Assembly (NCBI GenBank): GCA_030837315.1 | Contig: JAUPKS010000229.1 | Span: forward strand, 1 to 32,716 | Direction: 5' to 3' | Source: Planctomycetota bacterium | GTDB lineage: Bacteria > Planctomycetota > Brocadiia > Brocadiales > Brocadiaceae | DNA: 32,716 nucleotides | Shown: positions 17,829 through 19,937 of the stretch, piece after piece | Layout: each line of letters starts with the position of its first letter | How positions within the stretch are numbered: position 1 is the first letter of the stretch | Made by a program: the position numbers and the translations under genes | Notes under the pieces: generated by a model | What the model was told of the DNA's origin: nothing | Databases searched by the model: none | What the model saw: the letters and a program-made list of their open reading frames with translations, nothing else

Positions 17829-18563
17829 ATGAATGAAAGGATAGAGGTACTACGGAGGTTGCAATTAATAGATACAAAATTGAAAAGGCTGGAAGGCGAT
17901 AAACTCTACCGAGGTTATGATGTTCAAAAGAAGCAAAACCAAACCCATCAAAAAAAGACTGAATTATCTAAACTAAGTGAAGAGATAAAGACCTTTCACA
18001 AGAACACCACTCTTAAGGAACTTGACTTAAAAAGCATGGAGGTAGAGATCAATAAGTTGCGACTCCAGATGAATCAAGTTAAAACGAACAAGGAATACAG
18101 CGCAACAAAAACAGAAATTGGAGGAAAGGAAGCGAACAAGTCCGTTCTGGAAGATGAAATCCTGGGAATGATGGCGAAGTATGAGGAAATGAAGCAGAGA
18201 TACAAATCATTCGAAAACGAGATTGAACATGAAAATACGCAATTAAAAGAGCTCCAGAAACAGGTGGATGCTGATATGAAAGCAACAGATGCTGAAATAA
18301 ATGAACTGAAAAAAAAGCGCGACAACTATGCATCCATGTTAGACTCAGATGCCTTACAAGAGTATAATCGGTTAGTAAGCCATAAAGATGCAGTGGCTGT
18401 AGTTAATGTTGTTAACAAGGTATGCCAAGGCTGTTTCATGTCCATAACAGCACAGACGCTTAACCAGCTTATGTCAGGTAAAAATCTTACCTTCTGTCAT
18501 AGCTGCGGCCGGATTTTGTATTTGGAGAGCGGCAACGAAGAGCTGGAGGATGACACAAAGTAG
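17829..18563 (+). CDS. Coiled-coil C4 zinc-ribbon protein (CT398-like)
   Basis: A 244-residue cytoplasmic protein. Residues about 10-185 are rich in Lys, Glu and Gln with heptad-like hydrophobic spacing, predicting a long helical hairpin. The C-terminus is a zinc ribbon with cysteines C199, C202 (CQGC) and C223, C226 (CHSC), the latter in FCHSCGRILY. This matches the CT398/YbgI-adjacent family of small zinc-ribbon proteins, whose chlamydial member has been linked to sigma-54 and the secretion apparatus; the exact function is not settled. RBS GAGGA lies before the ATG. The gene is placed between rpoD and rnpB, and its stop codon falls inside the predicted first helix of the RNase P RNA. A similar pairing of this family with rnpB is known in other phyla, notably Actinobacteria. 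Confidence 0.82.
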   Translation: MNERIEVLRRLQLIDTKLKRLEGDKLYRGYDVQKKQNQTHQKKTELSKLSEEIKTFHKNTTLKELDLKSMEVEINKLRLQMNQVKTNKEYSATKTEIGGKEANKSVLEDEILGMMAKYEEMKQRYKSFENEIEHENTQLKELQKQVDADMKATDAEINELKKKRDNYASMLDSDALQEYNRLVSHKDAVAVVNVVNKVCQGCFMSITAQTLNQLMSGKNLTFCHSCGRILYLESGNEELEDDTK

Positions 18564-18966
18564 ACAAGGCGGTCGTCGGTTTTCACTATTCTTGTGAGAA
18601 TAGTAAGGAACGGGAGGAAAGTCCGAGCTCCACAGGACGCAGTGCTCCGTAACGCGGAGTCCCGGCAACGGGAAGGAAAGTGCAACAGAAAATATACCGT
18701 CCCGGTTATTTTATGGGATAAGGGTGAAATGGCGGGGTCATTTCCCTGTTGAAGACATACAGGGACAAGCATAGACTTAATGTAAGAGCCCACCGCTCCG
18801 GTGGCGACACCGGAGGCATGGCAAACCCCACTGGGAGAAAGGCTAAATAGGGAGGGATGAAGTGGTCCGCTTCGTTAATACTTCTGGGTAAGCCGTTTGA
18901 TCTCGCTGGCAACAACGAGACTAGATAAATGATCGTCCACGACAGAACTCGGCTTACTGTCTACTT
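18558..18966 (+). ncRNA. rnpB: RNase P RNA (type A)
   Basis: Catalytic RNA that trims the 5' leader from pre-tRNAs. Conserved elements are visible in order: GGGAGGAAAGTCCGAGCTCC (from 18612; P4 5' strand and region I), GGAAGGAAAGTGCAACAGAA (from 18671; regions II/III), GGCAAACCCCACTGGGAGAA leading into GGCTAAATAGG (from about 18819; region IV), and ACAGAACTCGGCTTAC (18942-18957; region V, P4 3' strand). The ends are set by a perfect 9-base P1 helix, AAGTAGACA (18558-18566) with TGTCTACTT (18958-18966). The 5' end overlaps the last six bases of the zinc-ribbon gene including its TAG stop. A strong hairpin terminator begins six bases after the 3' end. Confidence 0.95.
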
Positions 18967-18971
18967 AAAAA

Positions 18972-19011
18972 CAAAACCCCTCCGAGAACAATTGTTCACG
19001 GAGGGGTTTTG
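18972..19011. terminator. Strong bidirectional hairpin terminator
   Basis: CAAAACCCCTCCG (18972-18984) pairs perfectly with CGGAGGGGTTTTG (18999-19011). The loop is itself a palindrome, GAACAATTGTTC (18986-18997), so the stem can extend past an A/A mismatch. On the plus strand it ends rnpB and is followed by a mixed T-rich run; on the minus strand it is followed by five Ts and would end the transcript of the short gene at 19096-19185. Confidence 0.9.
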
Positions 19012-19025
19012 CATTTCTTTCGATC

Positions 19026-19091
19026 CATGTTGAATTACATCAAGAAATAACCATATCTCATCATACCGAACTATCTGAGACATTCAACATG
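19026..19091. repeat. 10-base inverted repeat with 46-base spacer
   Basis: CATGTTGAAT (19026-19035) is the exact reverse complement of ATTCAACATG (19082-19091). A smaller nested pair TCTCA/TGAGA lies within. It sits just downstream of the stop codon of the short minus-strand gene, before the bidirectional terminator, so it would form a stem-loop in that gene's 3' untranslated region. There is no T tract, so it is not an ordinary terminator; a stability or regulatory element is possible. Confidence 0.5.
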
Positions 19092-19095
19092 CCAC

Positions 19096-19185
19096 TTATT
19101 TCTTTTTTCCCTTCTCTCCTGCCTTTCCCTTTTCCGATTCCCCCTTCTTTTTTCCGGGATTATGTTTCGCACATGTCGTACACAT
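19096..19185 (-). CDS. Very small Cys/Lys-rich protein (29 residues), unknown
   Basis: Minus-strand ATG at 19183-19185 opens a 29-codon frame ending in TAA. The product starts MCTTCAKHNPGKKK and continues GESEKGKAGEKGKKK. A Cys-x2-Cys pair sits at positions 2 and 5 and His at 8, followed by a highly basic, unstructured tail of Lys, Gly and Glu. Support for a real gene: AAGGGGGTG (one mismatch to the ideal ribosome site) lies four bases before the ATG, a promoter with an exact TATAAT -10 lies about 60 bases upstream, and a bidirectional terminator lies downstream. The gene is too short for usual annotation cut-offs. A metal- or nucleic-acid-binding peptide is conceivable from composition alone; I recognise no family. 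Confidence 0.6.
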   Translation of the reverse strand: MCTTCAKHNPGKKKGESEKGKAGEKGKKK

Positions 19186-19220
19186 ATAACACCCCCTTAT
19201 TCTTTTCAAAAAAACACTGA

Positions 19221-19272
19221 TTACAATAAAATACGATTGTAAATTATATTACATTAACTCCTTTTTTTGCAA
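19221..19272 (-). promoter_or_regulatory. Promoter and possible operator for the 29-residue gene
   Basis: On the minus strand TTGCAA (19267-19272) and a perfect TATAAT (19243-19248) are 18 bases apart. Immediately downstream, across the expected start of transcription, is a 7-base inverted repeat TTACAAT/ATTGTAA (19221-19227 and 19236-19242), which could be an operator or a 5'-end hairpin. Transcription would start near 19236, about 50 bases before the short gene. Confidence 0.65.
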
Positions 19273-19391: not shown

Positions 19392-19937
19392 CTAACGAGA
19401 TGTTGATTCTATAACCTGTATACCGCTTTCGAATGCTTTTTTATTAATGGCAAACAAATCCCCCTTTTTCCCTTTTAGCATCGCCTGTAACTGATCCAAA
19501 ATAAGATTGGCAGAAAATAGCTTTTTAATTGCGAGATAGGCACCCATCATAACGATATTCGAGACCAGCACATTACCCAATTTGCTTGCGATCTCTGTTG
19601 CCTGAACTTTGTAGATTGTTGCGTCAGGTGGATTATTCACTTTAATCATGGAGGTATTCAAGAGAAGTAATCCATTGGGTTTTAACATCCCTTTAAATTT
19701 TTGATAGGAAGGTTGATTCATAATAATAAGGGTGTCAGCTTCTTCGATAATAGGAGAGAAAATCTCTTCGTTCGAAACGATCAGGTGATAGACGGCCGTT
19801 CCACCCCTCACTTCAGTACCATAGGAAGGAAAATACGTTACCTGTTTACCTTCAGCAATGGCTGCTTGTGCAAGTAATTTCCCCAGGAGCATCATCCCCT
19901 GTCCACCAAAACCTGCCAAGATTATTTTTTCAATCAT
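19392..19937 (-). CDS. 2-oxoacid:ferredoxin oxidoreductase, gamma subunit
   Basis: A 181-residue subunit of the POR/KOR/VOR gamma family. The N-terminal ILAGFGGQGMMLLGKLLAQA (5-24) and the segment TYFPSYGTEVRGGTAVYHLI are the family hallmarks; the latter lies by the coenzyme A site. It is the last gene of the oxidoreductase cluster, three bases after the beta subunit gene, and the last of the twelve-gene minus-strand block. A hairpin-forming sequence at 19344-19363 lies after the stop but lacks a T tract. Substrate specificity is not determined by this subunit. Confidence 0.92.
   Translation of the reverse strand: MIEKIILAGFGGQGMMLLGKLLAQAAIAEGKQVTYFPSYGTEVRGGTAVYHLIVSNEEIFSPIIEEADTLIIMNQPSYQKFKGMLKPNGLLLLNTSMIKVNNPPDATIYKVQATEIASKLGNVLVSNIVMMGAYLAIKKLFSANLILDQLQAMLKGKKGDLFAINKKAFESGIQVIESTSR

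Follow-up and report, generated by a model that had tools for sequence, protein, structure and literature searches.

The stretch of DNA analysed here (the window, 32,716 nucleotides) is one contig of a 3.06-Mb draft genome of a Brocadia-type anammox planctomycete (Candidatus Brocadia-like). The gene of interest lies in a gap between rnpB and the gamma gene (19392-19937) of a 2-oxoacid:ferredoxin oxidoreductase whose gamma, beta and alpha subunit genes stand beside the gap. A sequence-only reading had proposed that the minus strand of this gap carries a promoter, an inverted repeat, a ribosome site, a 29-codon frame and a terminator, and all of these are indeed present. The features are listed below, with the supporting evidence in brackets.

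18557-18971, plus strand: rnpB, RNase P RNA class A, convergent neighbour of the peptide gene (match of 261 bits)
18972-19011, both directions: two-way terminator hairpin, common to rnpB and the peptide gene (self-complementary match, 14-pair stem)
19096-19185, minus strand: 29-codon gene, product MCTTCAKHNPGKKKGESEKGKAGEKGKKK, stop TAA (orthologues, pN/pS, third-position excess)
19099-19155, minus strand: Lys-rich tail of variable length, ending KKK (Lys content, charge)
19156-19185, minus strand: conserved head, codons 1-10, M-C-T-T-C-A-K-H-N-P, with a putative Cys2-Cys5-His8 metal site (invariance and nucleotide identity)
19192-19198, minus strand: Shine-Dalgarno site AAGGGGG (AAGGAGG type in relatives)
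19226-19234, minus strand: GTATTTTAT element, 41-51 bases upstream of the ATG (at least 8 of 9 bases matching in about 20 of 25 relatives)
19243-19272, minus strand: sigma-70-like promoter TTGCAA-18-TATAAT (10 of 12 matches)

The promoter is composed of TTGCAA (19272-19267), an 18-base spacer and TATAAT (19248-19243), in a sequence where a promoter scan returned 5 sites against 1.0 expected. As judged by reading the loci, the complete pair is seen in the closest relatives and a few others and is absent from several Brocadia and Jettenia-type loci; the promoter proposed earlier thus exists in the window and is kept only in part of the relatives. The GTATTTTAT element is kept more widely; it could serve as an operator, as a 5' RNA element or as the -10 of a different sigma factor. 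CGTATTTTAT resembles a SigK/SigE -10, but a sporulation sigma was rejected for it, the host being a Brocadia, a planctomycete. The 7-base inverted repeat TTACAAT/ATTGTAA (19242-19236 and 19227-19221), placed across the transcript start by the sequence-only reading, is private to this genome, and its role as an operator was rejected.

The GC-rich hairpin at 18972-19011 has 14 pairs and a T tail. It occupies a tail-to-tail gap, and a similar hairpin follows rnpB in relatives without the peptide, from which we take it to be a two-way terminator that is primarily that of rnpB. The terminator assigned earlier to the small gene is therefore present and shared. The longer spacer, between the peptide stop and this terminator, holds a further inverted repeat, CATGTTGAAT...ATTCAACATG (19023-19089), enclosing about 45 bases; it is single copy in the genome, and a repeat family was rejected.

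The frame runs from the ATG at 19185-19183 to the TAA at 19098-19096. Its relatives conform to the consensus M-C-[T/K/M]-T-C-A-[K/R]-H-N-P followed by a variable Lys-rich tail, usually with a KKK end, and range from 14 to 35 residues. Loci recovered by DNA search read M-C-T-T-C-A-K-H-N-P-G-G-K-K-K, then a Lys-rich stretch that varies and, most often, KKK at the end. The Cys2, Cys5 and His8 head and basic tail pointed out in the first description were borne out: C2, T4, C5 and H8 are invariant in 29 orthologues, Lys makes up 43-60% of the tail in the 25 loci measured, and the net charge of the whole peptide is +4 to +13 in every member. Tail length varies by whole codons, two draft-MAG indels excepted. 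The start codon is also conserved, with a Shine-Dalgarno site 6-9 bases upstream. The shortest forms, of only 14-16 residues, occur in family f2, where the 14-mer MCKTCARHNPKKKK is identical in two genomes although their codons differ and their flanks are unrelated, and a third encodes MCKTCAKHNPPEKKKK. These short forms argue that the head and a few lysines are enough.

On its own, a frame of 29 codons behind a good ribosome site is little proof; it is conservation that lifts this one above chance. Within the family, codons 2-10 gave pS 0.51 and pN 0.057 (pN/pS 0.11). Between independent species pairs, differences at codon positions 1, 2 and 3 numbered 12, 17 and 43 (p = 1e-5), and this third-position excess was found in the head (0/2/8, p = 0.006) and in the tail (14/16/36, p = 0.001) taken separately. 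Mean pairwise nucleotide identity was 86% over the first 30 bases of the frame and 37% at -40 to -16. A broken frame was seen in only 2 of about 31 loci, both through short indels in draft MAGs, so that the stops and frameshifts which would have spoken against a gene are nearly absent. One is a short duplication near the start (G031). The other, in a Scalindua rubra assembly (L076:1501-1590), stops the frame at 19 residues, next to nine consecutive A, while a Lys-rich tail continues in the neighbouring frame; assembly error, slippage or recent damage are possible causes. Taken together, the codon-position bias and pN/pS are those of a protein under purifying selection, as in a conserved translated microprotein, and the translated small gene proposed at the outset is almost certainly real.

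Using the gap DNA as query, we obtained a match in 26 of 59 relatives. A peptide profile built from 18 sequences detected the peptide in 25 of 33 genomes of the family and in 31 of 62 Brocadiales genomes, and none was found in about 350 Planctomycetota outside Brocadiales. An independent DNA pattern gave the same restriction to Brocadiales. A pattern combining a ribosome-binding site with M-C-x2-C-x2-H had 25 sites in 62 whole genomes, of which 24 were the peptide, compared to a single site for the reversed control pattern. No copy was recovered by any search in three g11 genomes (probably Kuenenia), in g3 and g9, or in most genomes of g14, the main genus of family f4, absence being weaker evidence where drafts are incomplete. 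Hydrazine synthase alpha was detected in many genomes of f1, f2 and f4, the families with the peptide, which places the range of the peptide within the anammox bacteria without filling it. Since several anammox lineages lack it, the peptide is dispensable, and its absence from g11, g3, g9 and most of the main f4 genus argues against a universal ribosomal function.

A wide scan beyond Planctomycetota used the MCTTCAxH form of the head. Two groundwater Woesearchaeota MAGs (L053:6452-6490 and L074:6111-6149) carry a 12-codon frame MCTTCAKHKKPK after GAGGTGAT; identity between the two extends over about 141 bases and is lost just past the stop. As the search pattern itself found this frame, it may be a coincidence, a distant relative, or a mobile or assembly junction that the two MAGs share.

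In Brocadiaceae, the peptide gene and rnpB are arranged tail to tail, with a CT398-like zinc-ribbon gene and rpoD next in order. The oxidoreductase operon upstream is confined to the genus Brocadia, and an operon link with it was rejected on this ground. In two Scalindua-type genomes (G048 and G061) the neighbourhood of the gene includes UbiD and cysteine dioxygenase genes; in two f2 genomes it includes a gene for a phosphatidylethanolamine-binding protein. No gene partner was constant across the lineages compared, indicating a stand-alone, monocistronic unit, and since the position varies between families it is the peptide, not the locus, that is kept. In one genome (G018; L089, about 920-1480), the gene adjoining rnpB, where Brocadia has the peptide, resembles a transposase in translation, by eye.

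The earlier statement that the peptide belongs to no known family was upheld by searches of Pfam, NCBIfam, PHROG and PDB sequences, with a best E of about 0.12 to single members only. Phage and plasmid records gave no match either, and such an origin was rejected. Neither the peptide sequence nor a study of anammox microproteins turned up in the literature searched. AlphaFold gave a low-confidence model (pLDDT 61), too weak to build on, which has a helix in the tail and shows no metal site. A cytochrome c haem attachment peptide was rejected, as the heads read CxxCAKH or CxxCARH instead of CxxCH and no signal sequence is present.

What could such a peptide do? The reading we prefer, with a rough probability of 0.4, is a cytosolic metal-binding (Cys-Cys-His, probably zinc) peptide that a disordered Lys tail would hold on RNA or the ribosome. 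It would stay in the cytosol because it has no signal sequence. Removal of the initiator Met would leave Cys at the N-terminus of the peptide. A single soft metal ion, most likely zinc, would be bound by Cys2, Cys5 and His8, perhaps helped by the terminal amine or by a partner protein. The tail, being basic, would lack structure until contact with RNA or the ribosome, where it would anchor the small metal knuckle. The invariant residues at 2, 5 and 8 are consistent with a metal knuckle that lacks part of its ligand set, a tail of 43-60% Lys fits nucleic-acid or ribosome contact, and charge and ligands together are compatible with a putative metal-binding ribosomal or RNA-binding peptide. Several points count against this. 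Three ligands alone are an incomplete zinc site, no profile of a metal- or RNA-binding family in the libraries searched matched the peptide, the AlphaFold model shows no metal site, and the lineages without a copy speak against a universal ribosomal role. More tentatively, the 14-residue product could itself be a complete metal-dependent, RNA- or ribosome-bound factor specific to the anammox order, although we hold this to be rather unlikely.

Alternatively, the peptide could be a soluble metal buffer or metallochaperone. Its head would bind Cu, Zn, Ni or Fe, as a soft metal to be stored or delivered, and its Lys tail would keep it soluble or dock it to an acidic partner. The invariant Cys and His residues suit such a role, which we consider possible though doubtful. 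E. coli HypB begins MCTTC, so that the peptide head equals the start of the HypB nickel site, with Cys-x2-Cys at the very N-terminus of both. The high-affinity Ni site of E. coli HypB is CXXCGC (PMC7055735). The peptide departs from that motif, with heads of CTTCAKH/CKTCARH type: HypB carries a GTPase domain and, in its motif, a further Cys (GC), whereas the peptide continues with Ala-Lys-His and ends at 14-35 residues. HypB scored above the cut-off in 5 of 33 Brocadiaceae without tracking the peptide, being absent from most peptide-bearing Brocadia and present in g11 genomes that lack it. We found no association with the HypB GTPase and hydrogenase maturation, and a HypB/nickel link was rejected for want of co-occurrence. 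A buffer would moreover have only three ligands and one site per molecule, and no metal-transport or maturation gene adjoins the peptide gene in any lineage.

A thiol-redox role is improbable. Here Cys2 and Cys5 would form a CxxC disulphide in a small dithiol carrier or redox sensor targeted by its tail, as the adjacent basic residues and the helix-forming tail of the weak AlphaFold model would allow; yet the invariant His8 and the following Asn-Pro point to a metal site, a thioredoxin-like framework is lacking and no redox partner lies nearby.

The fixed place beside rnpB raises the question of an accessory peptide of RNase P. In every peptide-bearing Brocadiaceae genome where both genes were located, they are convergent, and a basic peptide could bind the RNA. 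Nevertheless, the adjacency is broken outside Brocadiaceae (in G061 and the f2 genomes the gene does not adjoin rnpB), and g11 genomes have rnpB without the peptide. A link with rnpB was rejected accordingly, and such an accessory is very improbable.

The sequence-only reading had also offered a regulatory RNA of about 270 bases with an incidental frame, now refuted as the main reading and left with slighter odds still. The whole transcript does fold better than shuffles (z = -3.9), but most of the excess comes from the shared terminator and the second hairpin at about 19023-19089. The synonymous bias in head and tail, the whole-codon length changes, the conserved ribosome site beside only 37% identity outside the frame (-40 to -16) and the relocation of the frame alone to other loci all go against it. 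Least credible of all, a leader peptide controlling the transcription or translation of a downstream gene would suit a frame this short (14 codons in some species) with a hairpin after it, but is contradicted by gene order, since in Brocadiaceae no same-strand gene lies downstream, the next gene rnpB being convergent, and downstream genes vary in other families.

Anammox bacteria account for much of the fixed nitrogen that oceans and wastewater lose, and what is known of their biology comes, to our knowledge, almost entirely from gene predictions. To this, a gene of 14-35 codons that selection has kept in much of the order, and that routine gene calling does not see, is a concrete and checkable addition. 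The patchy losses (g11, probably Kuenenia; g3; g9) provide natural knock-outs for comparison, and the 14-residue version is a test of the minimum length of a free-standing protein gene under selection. If the reading of that version as a complete factor were true, its gene would be among the smallest conserved protein-coding genes and would define a new class of one-knuckle metallopeptide.

The metal-binding, RNA- or ribosome-held peptide that we favour may be set beside two ribosomal proteins. bL36 is a small zinc-knuckle ribosomal protein, tiny and very basic, with four Cys/His metal ligands, a fold and a nearly universal distribution. The peptide is alike in size, basicity and Cys/His ligands; it differs in having three ligands, no fold, a restricted lineage and no sequence match, so that the resemblance is one of working only. 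bTHX is a Lys/Arg-rich ribosomal peptide of about 25 residues, mostly an unstructured chain, without a Cys/His head. Here the likeness lies in size and in the basic, mostly unstructured chain, and the difference in the Cys/His head of the anammox peptide, again with no sequence match.
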